Of a DNA stretch of 31,404 nucleotides, positions 3,270 to 24,175 are shown piece after piece. This DNA comes from a virus, in the IMG/VR virus record IMGVR_UViG_3300013133_000034, positions 1 to 31,404 of that record, one strand, 5' to 3'. Positions within the stretch are counted from its first letter, which is position 1; each line of letters begins with the position of its first letter. The notes under the pieces are model-generated. The model worked only from the letters and a program-made list of their open reading frames with translations. It did no database searches and was not told the DNA's origin. The position numbers and the translations under genes were made by a program.

Positions 3270-6221
3270 ATGTTTATGCTAGATATTAGTAATTTAAAAA
3301 ATAGAAAAACATTACTTAAATTAGAGGAATATAGTGGTACTAATGAGTATTTAATTTCACTAAAAGAAAGACTTCAGAAGGAAGGACCATTCCCTATTGC
3401 ACCTAGTATTGCTGAATACATAGAGAAAAATTTTCATTTTGATCCTTTAACAATAAATAAAGTGATTAAAATCACAGATTTTTTTGGTCAAACTTTAAAG
3501 GAAAAATTTGAGTTAAATCATGTGCCAGAAAGAATATTTGTTGAACAAGTTTTAGCGGATACAGAAAAAACTTACCATGTTAAGGGTAAAGTTTTTAAAA
3601 ATCAAAAATATTCACCCCTATTTTATATACCAAAAACACAAATAGATGAAAATTTATTAGACCTAGAAGAAGAGGTTGAGGTAGATTTTGATAAATATCA
3701 AGAAATGGATAAGAGGGGCTGGCGGGTATTTAAACATCAGGAGGAAGGAATTAAATTTTTACTAAGAAAGAAAAAATGTATTCTTGCTGACGATATGGGT
3801 CTTGGTAAAGTAATAGCTAACGATGTTCCAGTACTAACACCAAACGGTTGGGTAGAACATGGTTCATTAAAAGTTGGTGATTACGTTATAGGTAGTGATG
3901 GTAAACCAACAAAAGTTTTAGCCGTCCACCCAAATCCAATAAAAGATTATTATAATATAACATTTACGGATGGTACAGTAGTTGAGGCTTGTGACGAACA
4001 TTTATGGTCGGTATACACACCTTCACAAAAAAAACGTAATACTAAAAATCAAGTACTAACAATTCGTGATATGTTGGATAAAGAAAAAACTGTTATTACT
4101 AACGGTATCGGTATTAATGAAGGGAAAAAATACAAAACAAAAACTTATTATAAAATGAGTAATGGTGATTGTAAGTGGTATATACCAATTGTGAAACCAG
4201 TAGAATTTAACCCAAGAGAGATAAAAATACATCCTTATTTATTAGGTATTTTGTTAGGTGATGGATCTATTAGTGGTAAAAACAGTATTAAGTTAACAAC
4301 TAAAGATAGTGAAATTATAGATGAGATTACTAAAATAATACCAAAAAATATTTTATTGAGTGATTATAAGGAAGAGATAGAGTTTGGTTTTAAAATGGTT
4401 GCCAGGTCTAAGGGTAATGATTTGTTAAAATCGTTAAAATATTATAATCTAATGGGTAAAACTTCTGAAAACAAATTCATTCCAAACGATTACAAGTTCA
4501 ATGCTGTTGAAGTTAGATTAGAAATGTTACAAGGTTTATTGGATACTGATGGGTATTGTTCAAAAAAGGATGGTACAATACAATATTATTCAGTATCTAA
4601 ACAATTATCTGACGATGTTAAGGAATTAGTACAATCCCTAGGGGGTGTGGCTAGACAAAGAAGTAAAAGGGGTTCTTATAGATTACCAAATGGAGAACTT
4701 AAAGAATGTAAAATTTGTTATACATTAACAATAAACCTACCAGAAAATATAAAACCATTTAAGTTAACCCGTAAACTAGAAAATATAAAAGACATTAAAA
4801 AATACCATCCTTCAAGAGGTGTTAAAAACATTGAATTTTCTAGAAGAACTTTAGGACAATGTATTACTGTTGAAGCTGAAGATTCTTTATATGTTATGGA
4901 CCAATATGTTGTAACACATAATACTATAGTCTCAGTTGTAGCTTCAATAGCTAGTGAAGCAAAAAAAATATTAATTATTTGTCCTGCTAATGCCAAAATT
5001 AATTGGTTCCGTGAAATTAATGCTTATATACCTGAAGAAGATATTAGTATTATAAAAAGTAGTCATTGGAACACTAAAAAATATACTATTATTAATTATG
5101 ATATTTTAAAAAATTTCCACACACTAATTGATAATAGAAAGAAATATGAAGATTGGGAAATAAGGAGACATATTGTTGAAGAAGGTTTTGATTTGGTGAT
5201 AATGGATGAAGCTCACATGGTTAAAAATCCTAAAGCAGATAGAACTAAAATTGTTAATCAAATAACTACTGATATAGATAGAAGATGGTTATTAACAGGT
5301 ACACCTATTGCTAATAGACCAATGGACTACTATAATTTATTAAATCTTTGTGGTTCACCATTAACTTCTAGTTGGACCTTTTTTGCTTTTAGATATTGTG
5401 ACGGTAAAAAATTTAAAAGAAAATTAAAGAACGGTAAATTTAAAGAGATTTGGTTGACTGATGGCGCTTCTAATTTGGAAGAATTAAATGACAGAACTAA
5501 ATCAATTATTTTACGTAGAAAAAAAACAGACCATTTAGATTTACCACCTAAAATTGTGGCCCCATATTATATTGAAATTGATGATATGAAAAAATATAAT
5601 AGTGTTTTTGAAGAATATTTAGAATGGGCAAAAAGTGAAGGTAAAAAATTAGGTAACGGTAGACACATGGTTGAGTTAGTTGTTCTTAGAAAATATTTGG
5701 CAGAAGAAAAAGTTAAACATACAATAGAATTAGCCGAACAAGCTTTAGAAAATAATCAGAAGGTTATCATATTTACCAACTTTACACATTCTTTTGATTT
5801 ATTGATGAAACATTTTGGTAAGTTAGCTGTAGGCCATAATGGTAGAATGAACTCAACACAAAAACAATCCTCCATAGACAGGTTCCAAAATGACGATAAT
5901 GTTATGGTTTTTGTTGGTAATTTGATTTCGGCTGGTTCAGCTATTACTCTAACAAAAGCTCAAGTAACAATTATGAACGATTTAGACTTTGTTCCTGCTA
6001 ATCATGCACAAGCAGAAGATAGGTCATGGAGGATTGGTGTACAAAATACCGTTAACATCTATTATCCAATAGCACAAGGAACAATAGATGAAATGATGTA
6101 CGAAATGCTACAAAAGAAAACCAAAATTATTAACACAGTTATTGGGGATGAACAAAATGAATTGGACATTTCTGAAGACTTCTTTAAAAAATTTCTATCA
6201 AAACATAGTGAAACCGTTTAA
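3270..6221 (+). CDS. SNF2/DEAH-type DNA helicase interrupted by an intein
   Basis: The precursor has 983 residues; removing the intein (residues 181-551) leaves 612. The host protein is a superfamily 2 ATPase of the SNF2/SMARCAL1-like type. Visible motifs are the Q-like 'VFKHQEEGIKFLL', Walker A 'DDMGLGK' (K180) continuing after the intein with T552, DEAH (646-649), motif III 'WLLTGTPIANRP', motif IV 'KVIIFTNFTHSFDLLMKHFG', and motifs V/VI with 'GSAITLT' and 'QAEDRSWRIG' (Q914). It probably translocates on or remodels phage DNA during replication, recombination or fork repair. About 140 residues precede the helicase core. A second in-frame ATG at 3276 could be the true start. It lies between divergent neck genes, an odd place for a replication enzyme. 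Activity requires intein removal because the Walker A lysine and threonine are split. Confidence 0.92.
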   Translation: MFMLDISNLKNRKTLLKLEEYSGTNEYLISLKERLQKEGPFPIAPSIAEYIEKNFHFDPLTINKVIKITDFFGQTLKEKFELNHVPERIFVEQVLADTEKTYHVKGKVFKNQKYSPLFYIPKTQIDENLLDLEEEVEVDFDKYQEMDKRGWRVFKHQEEGIKFLLRKKKCILADDMGLGKVIANDVPVLTPNGWVEHGSLKVGDYVIGSDGKPTKVLAVHPNPIKDYYNITFTDGTVVEACDEHLWSVYTPSQKKRNTKNQVLTIRDMLDKEKTVITNGIGINEGKKYKTKTYYKMSNGDCKWYIPIVKPVEFNPREIKIHPYLLGILLGDGSISGKNSIKLTTKDSEIIDEITKIIPKNILLSDYKEEIEFGFKMVARSKGNDLLKSLKYYNLMGKTSENKFIPNDYKFNAVEVRLEMLQGLLDTDGYCSKKDGTIQYYSVSKQLSDDVKELVQSLGGVARQRSKRGSYRLPNGELKECKICYTLTINLPENIKPFKLTRKLENIKDIKKYHPSRGVKNIEFSRRTLGQCITVEAEDSLYVMDQYVVTHNTIVSVVASIASEAKKILIICPANAKINWFREINAYIPEEDISIIKSSHWNTKKYTIINYDILKNFHTLIDNRKKYEDWEIRRHIVEEGFDLVIMDEAHMVKNPKADRTKIVNQITTDIDRRWLLTGTPIANRPMDYYNLLNLCGSPLTSSWTFFAFRYCDGKKFKRKLKNGKFKEIWLTDGASNLEELNDRTKSIILRRKKTDHLDLPPKIVAPYYIEIDDMKKYNSVFEEYLEWAKSEGKKLGNGRHMVELVVLRKYLAEEKVKHTIELAEQALENNQKVIIFTNFTHSFDLLMKHFGKLAVGHNGRMNSTQKQSSIDRFQNDDNVMVFVGNLISAGSAITLTKAQVTIMNDLDFVPANHAQAEDRSWRIGVQNTVNIYYPIAQGTIDEMMYEMLQKKTKIINTVIGDEQNELDISEDFFKKFLSKHSETV
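3810..4922 (+). other. Class 3-type intein with LAGLIDADG endonuclease (371 aa)
   Basis: The intein occupies residues 181-551, inserted in Walker A between GLGK and T. Its first residue is Val, not Cys, Ser or Ala, so the normal N-terminal nucleophile is absent. The diagnostic W-C-T set of class 3 inteins is present: Trp246 two residues after the block B His244 ('DEHLWSV'), Cys531 at the block F position usually held by Asp ('GQCITVE'), and Thr549 just before the terminal His-Asn ('VVTHN', N551). The +1 residue is Thr552. 'LLGILLGDGSI' (about 323-333) and 'GLLDTDGYC' (about 421-430) are the two LAGLIDADG motifs, so the homing nuclease looks intact. In class 3 inteins the block F Cys forms the branched intermediate directly; applying this here is inference. 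Confidence 0.88.
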
Positions 6222-7422: not shown

Positions 7423-9690
7423 ATGAGTAATTTTTTCACAAGACCTAGATTTCAAGACAGAGATATTGTTCAATTAAGTGGTGATACAATAAGTTTATCT
7501 GGTGAAACTAATATAGATAATATTTTTAGATTTAGACCAAATGCTGTCGCTGGTTACGTTTTGACAGCCTTAGATAATAATGGTACTATATATTGGCAAC
7601 CTTCTTCAGGTTCAAGTGGTACATTCACAGGTAATACATCCGCTTCTTGTATTACCGATTTATGGGTTTCAAACATTTATGGGTGTTCACCTATAACTGT
7701 TTGGGATAGTGTTCAATCTATTGGGTCTTCTGCCACAGGTTTAATATCTTTTGCTTTTGGTGTTTCTAATTCGGCGGTTGGAATCGCTTCTCACGCTGAA
7801 GGTGGTAATACAACTGCTATTGGTGATACTTCACACTCTGAAGGAGCTTATACCACGGCCCTTGGTGACTCTTCACATGCTGAAGGTTATTACACAACAG
7901 CATCAGGACTTTATACATCACATGCTGAAGGTGCTTATACTTTAGCTTTAGGTACCGGTTCACACACTGAAGGTTATGGGACAACCGCTAGTGGGGACTA
8001 TTCACATACTGAGGGTAGACATACCAAGGCTTTAGGAGGTTATTCTCATGCTGAGGGTTCGGGTACAACCGCTATTGGGGACTATTCACATACTGAGGGT
8101 ATGGGTAATATATCAAGTGGTATGGGTTCACATACAGAAGGAGGCGTTTATTTTAAAGTTGGTTCACCAGAAATTACACCCAATTCAGCGACTACATATT
8201 CTTCTCATGCTGAAGGAGCAGGTACATTATCTTCAGGTTTGGCATCACATTCTGAAGGTTATGAAACAATAGCCTCAAGTAATTATTCACATTCTGAAGG
8301 TAGAGAGACAACAGCTTTAGGTATATCTTCTCACGCTGAGGGTTATCAAACAACAGCTTCAGGTCTTTATTCCCACGCTGAAGGACAATCAAATTTAGCT
8401 TACGGTAGTAGGTCACATGTAGAGGGAGGTTCAAATTTAGCTTACGGTACTTATTCTCACGCTGAAGGTAGTCAAACAACAGCTAGTGGTATAACATCAC
8501 ATTCTGAAGGTCAATTAACTACCGCTTATGGTGATTATTCACATGCTGAAGGTCAATCTACAACAGCTAATGGACCATCATCACATTCTGAAGGTCAATC
8601 TACAACTGCTTCAGGATTAGCTTCTCACGCTGAAGGCTCTGGAACAAAAGCTATGGGTATCTCTTCACACGCTGAAGGTTATCTAACAACAGCATCAGGT
8701 AATTATTCACATAGTGAAGGTAATCAGACAACAGCTTCAGGCCTTTATTCACATTCTGAGGGTATATTAACTACCGCTTCAGGTCTTTATTCACATTCTG
8801 AAGGTTATGGTACTATAGCTAGTGGTTACACTTCTCATGCTGAAGGTTTTAATACAACTTCAATAGAAGATTGGTCTCACACTGAGGGTGACCAAACAAC
8901 CACTTTAGGTAAACGTTCACACGCTGAAGGATGGTTAACAATAGCTATAGGTAATAACTCACATGTTGAGGGTAGACAAAATATAACTTATGGTGATAAC
9001 TCACATGCTGAAGGTTACGGGACGATTGCTAGTGGTGATTCGTCACATGCAGAAGGTTACTATAGTACAGCATTAGGATTCGCCTCACATGCTGAAGGTG
9101 GGTATTTAGAGATTTCGACATATTATTCAGGTGGGACGGCTATAGGTAGTGGTTCACATGCTGAAGGGGATAGAACTTCTGCTGTAGGGGATGTATCACA
9201 CGCCGAAGGCACTAGAACAGTCTCAATTGGAATAGCTTCACATGTTGAGGGTAGGCAAACAACTGCTGTAGGTGATTTTTCTCACGCTGAAGGTAGTCAA
9301 ACAACTGCTCAAGGTAATGTATCACACGCCGAAGGTAGATTAACAATATCTAGTGGTGACTATTCACACGCACAAGGGTATCAAACAACAGCTTCAGGTT
9401 ATTATTCTCATGCAGGTGGTTATAATTCAATAGCTCAAGGAATCACATCTTTTATACACTCAAAAGACTCCTTAGTTACGGGTGATAGAAGTGTTGTTTT
9501 AGGTGGTGAATATATTACAGGTTCAACAAGTGACACGGTTTATGTACCTAATTTAGTTGTGGTTAACAATTTTACACCTTCAGGTTCTACAGACCCCACT
9601 GGTGGTAACGGTTCTATGTCTTGGGATAATAATTATTTCTATTGGAAAGCTAATAATCAATGGTTAAGGATTTCTGGTTCTACATGGTAA
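7423..9690 (+). CDS. Tail fibre with ~38 YadA-like head repeats
   Basis: The product has 755 residues. Residues 1-~75 are an N-terminal anchor. A junction follows, 'CITDLWVSNIYGCSPITVWD' (two Cys), and then about 38 units of a 14-residue YadA-like head repeat (SHAEGxxTTASGxx; residues 123-675). Two units are enlarged by insertions (the 'GVYFKVGSPEITPNS' and 'GGYLEISTYYSGGTA' segments). After the repeats comes a conserved exit, 'SFIHSKDSLVTGDRSVVLGG', and a short C-terminal domain ending 'DNNYFYWKANNQWLRISGST', a common phage-fibre terminus. Such repeats build long trimeric stalks that present receptor-binding ends. The stop is 9 bp after the upstream gene's stop/start gap, so it is probably co-transcribed with the gp13-like gene. 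The assignment as a fibre is firm; the receptor is unknown. Confidence 0.88.
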   Translation: MSNFFTRPRFQDRDIVQLSGDTISLSGETNIDNIFRFRPNAVAGYVLTALDNNGTIYWQPSSGSSGTFTGNTSASCITDLWVSNIYGCSPITVWDSVQSIGSSATGLISFAFGVSNSAVGIASHAEGGNTTAIGDTSHSEGAYTTALGDSSHAEGYYTTASGLYTSHAEGAYTLALGTGSHTEGYGTTASGDYSHTEGRHTKALGGYSHAEGSGTTAIGDYSHTEGMGNISSGMGSHTEGGVYFKVGSPEITPNSATTYSSHAEGAGTLSSGLASHSEGYETIASSNYSHSEGRETTALGISSHAEGYQTTASGLYSHAEGQSNLAYGSRSHVEGGSNLAYGTYSHAEGSQTTASGITSHSEGQLTTAYGDYSHAEGQSTTANGPSSHSEGQSTTASGLASHAEGSGTKAMGISSHAEGYLTTASGNYSHSEGNQTTASGLYSHSEGILTTASGLYSHSEGYGTIASGYTSHAEGFNTTSIEDWSHTEGDQTTTLGKRSHAEGWLTIAIGNNSHVEGRQNITYGDNSHAEGYGTIASGDSSHAEGYYSTALGFASHAEGGYLEISTYYSGGTAIGSGSHAEGDRTSAVGDVSHAEGTRTVSIGIASHVEGRQTTAVGDFSHAEGSQTTAQGNVSHAEGRLTISSGDYSHAQGYQTTASGYYSHAGGYNSIAQGITSFIHSKDSLVTGDRSVVLGGEYITGSTSDTVYVPNLVVVNNFTPSGSTDPTGGNGSMSWDNNYFYWKANNQWLRISGSTW
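7789..9447 (+). repeat. ~38 tandem 42-bp coding repeats
   Basis: The region encodes SHAEG/SHSEG/SHTEG/SHVEG units at 14-codon spacing. The 'tcacatgctgaaggt' core and close variants recur throughout, giving ample substrate for unequal recombination within this gene and with the arrays at 1-255 and 12341-13225. Confidence 0.9.
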
Positions 9691-20233: not shown

Positions 20234-23200
20234 ATGAGTAAAAAAGAAATTAAACAGGCAACCCCTGAAGATATTAAAAAATTCTTAGAGGGTTATGACG
20301 ATGAAAAATATATCGTCTCCATAGAATTGGACCAAACAGATGATTGGTCTATTGATGAAACAAACAAAGTTTATATTGTAATTGACGACCCTAAAAAGGG
20401 TAAAAAAATAAAAACACAAAAATTCACCCCTTTTTGTTGGACAAAATCATTACGTGGAAGTGGTTTCTATGGTGATGACTTAGATGTTATAAAAAGAGAA
20501 GCAAAAAAATACGGTATCTATACTGAGAAACTTAAGACTGGTGATAATGAACGTTTAGAAGATGGTTTTAAGTTTATGGTTAAAACTAGTGGGACTTATC
20601 GTGACCTTGTAAATTTCTTTAGAAAAGGTGGTGTTAACCCTTGGGATAGAAATAATAAATTAATAGAAATTTTACCCCCTGTTGAGCAATTTATGATTCA
20701 AACAGGTAAAAGGTTGTTTAAAGGTTATGAAGACTACACAGAAGTCCATAAACTAACTTTCGATATTGAGACCACGAGTCTTGAAGCCAATGAAGGACAT
20801 TGTTTTATGATTGGTGTTAAAGATAATCGTGGTTTTAAAAAATTATTAACAGCCTATGATGAGAATGGTGAATATTCTGAAGAAGGTGAGAGAAAAATGA
20901 TAAAAGAGTTTTTTGAAATCATCCATGAACTAGAACCAACAATTATCATTGGATATAACTCTGAAAACTTTGACTGGACTTATCTAATTGGTAAATGGGT
21001 AGAATATAAACACCCTAAAACAAAAAAAATAGAAAAAACTTTATTACCTGGTAGGGCTCAATTATTAGGTTTGAATACTGATGATTTTGTTAAAACAAAA
21101 CACCCTCTAGTTAAACTTAAAAGAAGTGCTGCAACTTTAAAATTAGGTGCTGAGGTTGAGGATTATCAACAAACTAATATATGGGGTTATAATGTGATGG
21201 ATACTTACCATAGAGTTAGACAAGCCATGGCATTGAATTCAGCTTTGGAAAGTGGTACTTTGAAATATATTGCTAAAGAAGCTAAAGTAGAGAGACCAAA
21301 TAGGGTTTATGTTGATGGTAATCAATTAGGTAAAATTTGGAAAGAAAATAAAAAATATTATTATAACCCAACAAGTGGTCAATGGTATAATTTGGATGGT
21401 AATAAACCTGAACCAAAAGATGTCAATGGTTATGAAGATAAGTGGGAAATTGTTGACGGTCAATTTTTAATTAAGGAGTATCTTAATGATGACCTTTTGG
21501 AAACCGAACTTGTTGACGATATCTATGCTCAAGCTGGTTTCTTAACCTCAGCATTGGTTCCAACAAACTTTATTAGGTCAATCACAATGGGTACAGCTAC
21601 AATGTGGAAGACTCTAATGATGGCATGGTCTTATGAAAATGGGTTAGCATTACCAGGGATACAACCAAAAAGAGATTTTGTTGGTGGTTTATCTAGATTA
21701 TTAAATTTAGGTTATAGTAGAAATATTGCTAAATTTGACTACGCTTCACTTTATCCTTCAATTCAGTTAACACATAACGTATTCCCTACTGTAGATATTT
21801 CAGGTGCTTTAAGAGCTATGTTAAAATATTTGTTAGATACCCGTAATGAATACAAATATTTGGCAAATGAATATAAAGAAAAAGGTGATGAAAAATTAGC
21901 AAGTAAATTTGACAAGAAACAATTACCTATTAAAATCTTTAACAACTCAGCATTTGGTTCTATTTCGGCACCTTATATTTTTCCTTGGGGTGATATTGAT
22001 ATTGGTGAAACTATTACTTGTACGGGTAGACAATATCTTCGTTTAATGGTTAAATTTTTTATGGATAGAGGTTATAAACCTTTAGTTGGTGATTCCGTAA
22101 CAGCTGACACACCAGTATACATTAAATATGAAGATGGTACTATAGATATAAAAGCTATATGTGATTTATTTGATGAAAATGGTATTATCGGTGATGATAA
22201 CTTAAGGGACCATTCTATTAAACCATATCAAATCCTAACAAGAAGTGGCTGGAGACATATAAAATATGTTTATAAACATGGAACTGATAAAAAAATACAT
22301 AACATTGTAACTAAAGACAGATATGTAAATGTTACTGAAGACCACTCACTATTCCAAAATGGGGTAGAAATTAAACCATCAGAACTAAAAAGGGGTGATA
22401 TTATTGATGTAATTGACGTACCTTTTTCTGAAATTAAAAGTGAAATGTCTTTAGACAAAGCTTGGTTAATGGGATTCTTTTTAGGTGATGGGTCTTCTTG
22501 TAATAATTTTAGAGAAACAAGTAGATATAAAAGTAAAAAAACTGGTGATTTTAGAAAATATAAAAGTAGAAGGTGTGATTGGAAAATCAGTAATAAAGAT
22601 ATTTTACTATTAGAAAAGGCTAAAAATATTCTAGAAAAAGAATATGGTATAAAAGCTAATATTAAAGACCATTTAAAATCTTCTAGTGTTTATAATTTGT
22701 ATTCAGCAAAAAAAGAATTATGTGAATGGTATAGTAATAATTTTTACACATCATATAGAGAAAAAAAGGTACCTATGTTAATTTTAAATTCTAGTATTGA
22801 GGTTAAAAAATCTTTTATAGATGGGTTTATGTCTGCTGATGGTGATGGTTACACAATGGATACAACAACAAGTTTTTGTCAAAAATCACAAATAACCATG
22901 GCAGGTTTATCATTACTATTTAAAGAATTAGACAATAATTATAAAATAGTGGTTAGAAAAGACAAAGAAAATATCATATCCTTTATTACAGGTTGTATTA
23001 GAAATGGTAAAAATTATAAAATTAATGACGACAAATCAAATATTAAATCTAATGAGGTTTGGGTTAATAGAGTTGTTAAAAATAAAACAGAATATGTTTA
23101 TGATGTTTCTACTGAGGATGGTACTTTTATTTGTGGTATTGGTGGTGTTATAGCACATAATACTGATGGTATGAACTTTTCTTGTCCTGACGATGTTGAA

Positions 23201-24175
23201 TCTAGGACTTATATCGGTAAAGGGTTTCACAGATTTAGTGAAGAGGGTAAAGAATATAAAGGTATTGAGGCTGACGTGGCTGAATATAATGACCGTTATA
23301 TGTTTGAGGCTATGGGTCTTGATATTGATGAGGTATGGCCTGCAACAATTAATATTTCACGTAAAAATTATGCCACATTAAAACCAAACGGAAAAATTAA
23401 ATTAACTGGTAATACCATTAAGGGTAAAACAATCCCAAAATATATTAAAACCTTTTTAGATAAAGGTATAAAAATGTTATTAAGTGGTGATGGTAAATCT
23501 TTTGTTGAATATTATTATGAATATTTAGAAAGAATCTATAATATGGATATTCCCTTATCTGAGATTGCTAATAAATCTAAAGTTAAAAAAACTATTCAAC
23601 AATATCTAAATAGAGGTACAGATAAAAATGGTAAAGATTTAGCTAGACAGGCACATATGGAACTTTTAATTAAGGAAAGTGCTCACGCTGATTTAGGTGA
23701 AACTGTTTTTTATGTCAATAATGGGACAAAAAAATCACACGGTGACATCCAAGTAAGAAAAACTAAAAATGACCCACCTGAAGGTACTTTAATTTTTAAT
23801 TCTTATTTGATTAGAAGTGAAGAAATGGAAAAGAACCCAAATCTAAAAGGAGTTTATAACGTACCAAAATATATAGATGCTTTTAATAAAAAGGTAGAAC
23901 CACTTTTAGTTGTGTTTAACATTGGTGTTAGAGAAACTTTATTAATAACTGACCCTGAAGAAAGACAATATTATACTAATAGTGAACTTGAACTTGTTTC
24001 AGGGATACCTAGTAGTCCTGGTGACCAAGATACTTTAGAAGAACTTTTAACAATCAGTGATGCTGAATTAGATTTTTGGAATAAAATGGGTGTTTCCCCC
24101 GATTACATGGTTAATGATAGATTATCTGATAAAGTTGAAAACTTAGACTCAAAAAGTCAAAATTTAGTTCATTAA
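20234..24175 (+). CDS. Family B DNA polymerase interrupted by an intein
   Basis: The precursor has 1313 residues; without the intein (621-976) it has 957, close to T4 gp43 (898). The exonuclease domain shows Exo I 'FDIET' (D177, E179), Exo II 'GYNSENFD' (D247) and Exo III 'YNVMD' (Y319, D323). The polymerase domain shows motif A 'DYASLYPS' (D502), motif B 'KIFNNSAFG' (K567) and motif C, split by the intein as GD620/T977-D978 ('TDGMNFS'). All expected metal ligands are present, so the spliced enzyme should replicate and proofread phage DNA. It follows a terminator and begins a new unit. Splicing is required for activity because the catalytic motif C is split. Confidence 0.95.
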   Translation: MSKKEIKQATPEDIKKFLEGYDDEKYIVSIELDQTDDWSIDETNKVYIVIDDPKKGKKIKTQKFTPFCWTKSLRGSGFYGDDLDVIKREAKKYGIYTEKLKTGDNERLEDGFKFMVKTSGTYRDLVNFFRKGGVNPWDRNNKLIEILPPVEQFMIQTGKRLFKGYEDYTEVHKLTFDIETTSLEANEGHCFMIGVKDNRGFKKLLTAYDENGEYSEEGERKMIKEFFEIIHELEPTIIIGYNSENFDWTYLIGKWVEYKHPKTKKIEKTLLPGRAQLLGLNTDDFVKTKHPLVKLKRSAATLKLGAEVEDYQQTNIWGYNVMDTYHRVRQAMALNSALESGTLKYIAKEAKVERPNRVYVDGNQLGKIWKENKKYYYNPTSGQWYNLDGNKPEPKDVNGYEDKWEIVDGQFLIKEYLNDDLLETELVDDIYAQAGFLTSALVPTNFIRSITMGTATMWKTLMMAWSYENGLALPGIQPKRDFVGGLSRLLNLGYSRNIAKFDYASLYPSIQLTHNVFPTVDISGALRAMLKYLLDTRNEYKYLANEYKEKGDEKLASKFDKKQLPIKIFNNSAFGSISAPYIFPWGDIDIGETITCTGRQYLRLMVKFFMDRGYKPLVGDSVTADTPVYIKYEDGTIDIKAICDLFDENGIIGDDNLRDHSIKPYQILTRSGWRHIKYVYKHGTDKKIHNIVTKDRYVNVTEDHSLFQNGVEIKPSELKRGDIIDVIDVPFSEIKSEMSLDKAWLMGFFLGDGSSCNNFRETSRYKSKKTGDFRKYKSRRCDWKISNKDILLLEKAKNILEKEYGIKANIKDHLKSSSVYNLYSAKKELCEWYSNNFYTSYREKKVPMLILNSSIEVKKSFIDGFMSADGDGYTMDTTTSFCQKSQITMAGLSLLFKELDNNYKIVVRKDKENIISFITGCIRNGKNYKINDDKSNIKSNEVWVNRVVKNKTEYVYDVSTEDGTFICGIGGVIAHNTDGMNFSCPDDVESRTYIGKGFHRFSEEGKEYKGIEADVAEYNDRYMFEAMGLDIDEVWPATINISRKNYATLKPNGKIKLTGNTIKGKTIPKYIKTFLDKGIKMLLSGDGKSFVEYYYEYLERIYNMDIPLSEIANKSKVKKTIQQYLNRGTDKNGKDLARQAHMELLIKESAHADLGETVFYVNNGTKKSHGDIQVRKTKNDPPEGTLIFNSYLIRSEEMEKNPNLKGVYNVPKYIDAFNKKVEPLLVVFNIGVRETLLITDPEERQYYTNSELELVSGIPSSPGDQDTLEELLTISDAELDFWNKMGVSPDYMVNDRLSDKVENLDSKSQNLVH
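22094..23161 (+). other. Class 1 intein at polymerase motif C, LAGLIDADG type (356 aa)
   Basis: Residues 621-976 are inserted between D620 and T977 of motif C, the same place as the archaeal pol-c intein site. The intein starts with Ser ('SVTADTPVYIKYEDG') and ends with 'GVIAHN', with Thr at +1. Block B has 'NVTEDHSLF' and block F 'YVYDVSTEDGTFI', which keeps the usual Asp, so splicing should follow the standard class 1 route. LAGLIDADG motifs are 'LMGFFLGDG' (about 745-754) and 'FIDGFMSADGDG' (about 861-872), so the homing nuclease appears intact. Confidence 0.93.

Follow-up and report, generated by a model that had tools for sequence, protein, structure and literature searches.

What kind of element interrupts the Walker A motif of a SNF2 helicase in a virus record from IMG/VR, by which route would it leave the protein, and does it widen the known range of such elements? 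The reading best supported by sequence comparison and structural modelling, to which we assign a probability of about 0.93, is that the 371-aa insert in the Walker A loop is a class 3 intein with a LAGLIDADG nuclease, which would be spliced out by the class 3 route.

The interrupted helicase gene

The window, i.e. the whole stretch of DNA analysed here, is an IMG/VR virus record of 31.4 kb (31,404 nt). An ORF at positions 3270-6221 on the plus strand, open under table 11, encodes a protein of 983 aa, in which Pfam searches identified SNF2-rel_dom (PF00176, 3e-29, residues 156 to 790), which extends to either side of the insert, and Helicase_C (PF00271, 2e-11) on the extein portion. The presence of both domains on the exteins identifies the host protein as a SNF2 helicase. 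The insert is an in-frame intein of 371 aa, extending from Val1 to Asn371 and corresponding exactly to residues 181-551, or nt 3810-4922 on the plus strand, as placed by the original prediction. It splits the Walker A motif between Lys and Thr (ADDMGLGK|T), following an N-extein of residues 1-180 (3270-3809, plus strand) that ends in ILADDMGLGK and preceding a C-extein of residues 552-983 with Helicase_C (4923-6221, plus strand, including the stop codon). Excision of the insert gives back ILADDMGLGK-TIVSVV with an unbroken Walker A motif, and the helicase without the 371 aa matches intein-free homologues over its full length. The insert is no chance feature.

The PHROG profiles for 'terminase large subunit' were found to match the intein portion of the helicase at 3270-6221, and similar genes in public records (H21, H42, H50, H85) are variously named helicase, terminase or DarB-like antirestriction protein. 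Such genes may have been misnamed from the intein that they have in common.

Class 3 signature and nuclease domain

Class 3 inteins are defined by a Trp at B:12, a Cys at F:4 and a Thr at G:5, the +1 residue being usually Ser or Thr and a nucleophile at position 1 being dispensable (PMC5222942, PMC3196547). The window intein has Trp66 at B:12 (4005-4007), Cys351 at F:4 (4860-4862), which is the predicted first nucleophile, and Thr369 at G:5, the latter within the terminal Thr369-His370-Asn371 of block G:5-G:7 (4914-4922). It begins with the non-nucleophilic Val1 (3810-3812), carries the block B:10 residue His64 (3999-4001) and is followed by Thr+1, the Walker A Thr and predicted second nucleophile, at 4923-4925; all these features are on the plus strand. 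In the precursor they correspond to Val181, Trp246 (in DEHLW), Cys531 (in GQCITVE), Thr549 (in VVTHN) and Thr552 at +1, a numbering that the original prediction had given correctly.

The assignment of these residues to the intein blocks was examined against a solved structure. 6riz is, according to its structure title, the gp41-1 intein with the substitutions C1A, F65W and D107C, and was built to mimic the class 3 triad (PMC7664689). When a profile of 60 related inteins was compared with PDB sequences, the conserved HLW was placed on EEHLW of 6riz and the conserved Cys on that of RELICIEV; with positions counted along the printed alignment, Trp66 falls on F65W and Cys351 on D107C. Cys531 of the precursor is thus at F:4, whereas a position outside F:4 had been named as refuting class 3 membership.

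Structural comparisons pointed in the same direction. The top matches of a single-sequence phmmer search among solved structures were the class 3 DnaB inteins 6rix, 6riy and 6bs8. The AF2 model of the intein (pLDDT 94.8) matched 6bs8 of M. smegmatis with a Z of 18.6 (1.5 A over 123 aa) and 6rix of M. chimaera with a Z of 18.1, the solved class 3 inteins as a whole superposing on the predicted splicing domain with Z of about 18 and 1.5-1.9 A, whereas class 1 mini-inteins scored lower (e.g. 1mi8, Z 15.6). PI-SceI, which also carries a nuclease, matched over the whole length (Z 26.6 over 329 aa). The AF2 model of the precursor has a pTM of 0.52, with pLDDT below 50 at both junctions (residues 175-180 and 546-551).

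The LAGLIDADG homing endonuclease domain occupies approximately residues 139-320 of the intein (4224-4769, plus strand), with a match to LAGLIDADG_3 (PF14528, 1.3e-13) inside the insert. The acidic residue is preserved in each of the two LAGLIDADG motifs; Asp151 (LLGILLGDG) and Asp247 (LQGLLDTDG) are present in 92 and 93 of 94 related inteins, respectively. Comparison with a second allele of the same intein (locus L003, see below) gave dN 0.116, dS 1.06 and dN/dS of about 0.11 for the whole intein, dN 0.152, dS 1.27 and dN/dS of about 0.12 for the nuclease part, and dN 0.055, dS 0.97 and dN/dS of about 0.06 for the splicing part, values that are rough since dS is near saturation (about 1.1), so that only their direction, purifying selection, is safe. 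At the level of sequence, therefore, both class 3 membership and an intact LAGLIDADG nuclease, as originally proposed, were borne out, the former by the alignment of the triad with the WCT positions of 6riz and the latter by the two acidic residues, the PF14528 match and the low dN/dS.

Alleles, related inteins and the phage

Scanning of IMG/VR with the whole protein yielded 18 loci. One of these, on another IMG/VR contig (L002), is the same allele, 99.9% identical over 983 aa. Intein-free homologues in related phages, which the original prediction had proposed to look for, were also found: L004 lacks the intein while its extein is identical to that of the window at 580 of 612 positions (94.8%), and represents a precise empty site. 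L003 carries a second intein allele, identical to the window intein at 296 of 370 positions (80%), the exteins being identical at 445 of 609 (73%); L016, with an extein 91% identical to that of L003, has no intein and completes a second pair of occupied and empty sites. At least ten further relatives of 48-77% identity are without the intein and, among nine records searched whole, a copy of it was present only in that of L003. As judged from these alignments, presence and absence between near relatives, together with inteins that are more alike than their exteins, is the usual pattern of a mobile intein. A co-conversion tract was considered for the first 20 codons after the insertion point, which in amino acids are the most diverged between the window and L004 (12 of 20 aa, 44 of 60 nt); this divergence is no evidence for co-conversion, because L004 shows the same peak when compared with intein-free relatives such as L018.

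A wider set of inteins was assembled from 18 loci of named phages and 80 of IMG/VR, in which 94 distinct inteins were delimited. The Cys at F:4 and the His at B:10 are invariant (94/94), the Thr at G:5 is found in 92 and the Trp at B:12 in 90, with Phe in the other four, frequencies that are partly built in because the 94 relatives were chosen by similarity, and that give no estimate for inteins at large. Position 1 is occupied by Ala in 52, Gly in eight, Ser and Phe in seven each, Val in five and others in the rest; Val at this position is within the normal range. In most of them the insertion point is directly after the Gly-Lys of a P-loop and before the Thr. The carriers include phages of Salmonella, Vibrio, Klebsiella, Pseudomonas, Brevundimonas, Mycobacterium and Parabacteroides and a Kochikohdavirus, and the intein-bearing proteins are of SNF2, UvrD, DnaB and terminase type. 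At an ADDMGLGK|T-like site, at least 23 other SNF2 genes in IMG/VR have an intein with the F:4 Cys, as do the named phages Brevundimonas Papperlapapp and PhiPA3 and a 484-kb phage.

In a quick maximum-likelihood tree, with SH-aLRT support only and without a class 1 outgroup, the window intein groups with other WCT inteins, first with L040 (support 99) and then with L041 and L042 (98), which share its SNF2 site. The majority of the remaining SNF2-site inteins belong to another, well supported group (99). The SNF2 site label requires 11 changes on the tree against 26.8 in shuffles. The descent of these inteins is thus tied to the insertion site, which has probably been reached on several separate occasions.

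Several variants were observed in the set. The four inteins with Phe in place of the signature Trp at B:12 (L044, L052, L069, L071) are at the SNF2 site and keep the F:4 Cys and the G:5 Thr; they are natural test cases of the Trp requirement. L114 and L116 keep the Trp and the Cys of the triad with Ser at G:5 (SHN|S), and are inserted after the GPRG of a P-loop-like stretch. A second tight group of phage class 3 inteins (L053, L054, L057, L060, L067, L073, L075, L078, L079, L081, L084, L103; support 100) is found at GVILAPTGVGK|T of a host protein.

A phage of Bacteroidota, as originally suggested, is plausible from sequence matches to named phages, which fall short of proof. Flavobacterium phage immuto is among the best matches (31%) of the TerL of a relative (L018 contig) and is matched by the tail spike-like protein of the window, and the helicase extein has matches in Bacteroides, Rhodothermus and Cellulophaga phages, the nearest named phages for the three proteins being at about 27-48% identity. 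Among 27 ORFs of the window (1189-30232), a Shine-Dalgarno-like sequence is absent from the 30 nt upstream of 26. A genome scan did not find the window intein in the best 80 cellular SNF2 loci and, because these loci are distant (22-33% identity) and without the intein, they are no guide to the host.

Other features of the window were also recorded. ATATTTATA occurs in six copies, five on the plus strand (6237, 16482, 19725, 24199, 28088) and one on the minus strand (3220), each of which precedes an ORF start on its own strand by 13-25 nt; in the close relatives L002, L003, L004, L006, L012, L013, L015, L016 and L018 the distance is 21-25 nt for every copy. This phage group may use it as a late promoter or a leader element. 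Read on the opposite strand, TATTTATA gives the T4 late-promoter-like TATAAATA. Near the helicase, 7423-9690 encodes a 755-aa protein with many SHAEG/SHTEG repeats (YadA-like head repeats), which is probably a tail fibre. A 1313-aa protein (20234-24175) has its best named matches, of about 25% identity, in Salinibacter phage proteins that carry the annotation DNA polymerase elongation subunit.

Splicing route and known class 3 inteins

Because the intein lies between Lys180 and Thr552, normal ATP binding would be impaired in the precursor. By the class 3 route, Cys351, aided by His64, Thr369 and Trp66, would attack the Lys180-Val181 bond to form a branched thioester at block F, from which the N-extein would move to Thr+1 in a second branched ester; cyclisation of Asn371 and an O-to-N shift would then join Lys to Thr and restore ADDMGLGKT. 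The nuclease would cut the unbroken GLGKT-coding site of intein-free phages during mixed infection, and the element would be copied into the cut site by repair. We infer this chemistry, as well as splicing, nuclease activity and homing, from knowledge of the family.

Three other explanations were weighed. Val at position 1 excludes the usual acyl shift, and direct attack from +1 is established for class 2 inteins (PMC5222942), so that Thr+1 might attack the N-junction itself, in a class 2-like or class 1-like manner, with Cys351 merely assisting. However, class 2 is known from KlbA only (PMC3196547), the full triad is present, and the Cys is invariant in the relatives although their first residue varies freely; such a route appears extremely improbable. 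The class 3 signature might otherwise belong to an intein that splices slowly or not at all, like the Arth_1007 pseudo-intein of Arthrobacter, and that is kept since the helicase is dispensable. Inactive class 3-like inteins are on record (PMC3196547), but the window intein keeps every catalytic residue that Arth_1007 has lost (the His of B:10 and the Cys of F:4), the splicing blocks are the most constrained portion of the intein by the dN and dS values given above, and the helicase motifs are kept on both sides of it, which makes a dead or slow intein very unlikely.

The intein might, in addition, act as a switch, with splicing of the helicase controlled, e.g. by oxidation of Cys351 or zinc binding to it, and thus be a regulator beyond a selfish element. 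Redox and zinc control are reported for class 3 DnaB inteins (PMC6195587, PMC7360933). The patchy occurrence among near-identical relatives fits instead a mobile element that its hosts can do without, and the sequence holds no pointer to control of splicing; a regulatory role is very unlikely. Splicing by the class 3 route is, therefore, the preferred reading.

The original prediction held that class 3 inteins are known mainly from DnaB-type helicases and terminases of actinobacterial phages, and that the intein of the window would extend their range of host genes and host lineages. Comparison with known systems corrects the former, SNF2 hosts and non-actinobacterial phages being well represented already, and does not sustain the latter. 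The Snf2 intein of Deinococcus radiodurans was shown to splice via the F:4 Cys (Brace et al. 2010, cited by PMC5222942 and PMC3196547) and has since 2010 served as a model of class 3 (the same two papers and PMC7664689). By the description in these citing papers it is, like the window intein, of class 3 and inserted in a helicase of the SNF2 family, differing in that its gene is bacterial while that of the window is of phage origin; together with the 23 further SNF2 genes of IMG/VR, it places class 3-type inteins in this host gene already. L040, L041, L042 and the L044-L074 set share with the window the gene family, the K|T site, the WCT positions (apart from the Phe variants described above) and the LAGLIDADG domain, with intein identities of 80%, 57%, 56% and about 36-46%, respectively. 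The DnaB inteins of Mycobacterium (6bs8, 6rix) share the triad, the splicing fold (1.5-1.9 A) and a P-loop helicase host, but are mini-inteins without a nuclease, in DnaB, at 28-30% identity. For mycobacteriophages, inteins at the K|T of the P-loop have been described, and also an intein in a HepA-related helicase (PMC5050341); the P-loop class 3 inteins are phage-borne and lie between Lys and Thr as in the window, but belong to actinobacterial phages and mostly to terminases.

With respect to lineage, a residue-by-residue check of public records found W-C-T inteins in Parabacteroides phage PF672P1 and the crAss-like cr111_1 (L029, L031). These are inteins of Bacteroidota phages, at about 32-34% identity to that of the window, and their host proteins are different, with no Pfam match outside the intein, the cr111_1 gene being annotated as a terminase. 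Inteins of crAss-like phages have been described, their class not being given in the available part of that report (PMC7886860).

It is improbable that in uncultured phages the Walker A site of SNF2 is a major reservoir of class 3 inteins that has gone unreported so far, natural Phe-for-Trp variants included, and that the inserts tune the helicase through the F:4 Cys during infection. Phages commonly carry class 3 inteins, examples in this gene and at this site are on record, and the window holds a well-resolved ordinary one. It leaves the known mechanism and the known range of host genes unchanged; what is gained is a class 3 intein that is clean and complete in length and has an empty counterpart of 95% identity, a pair useful for tests of splicing and homing.
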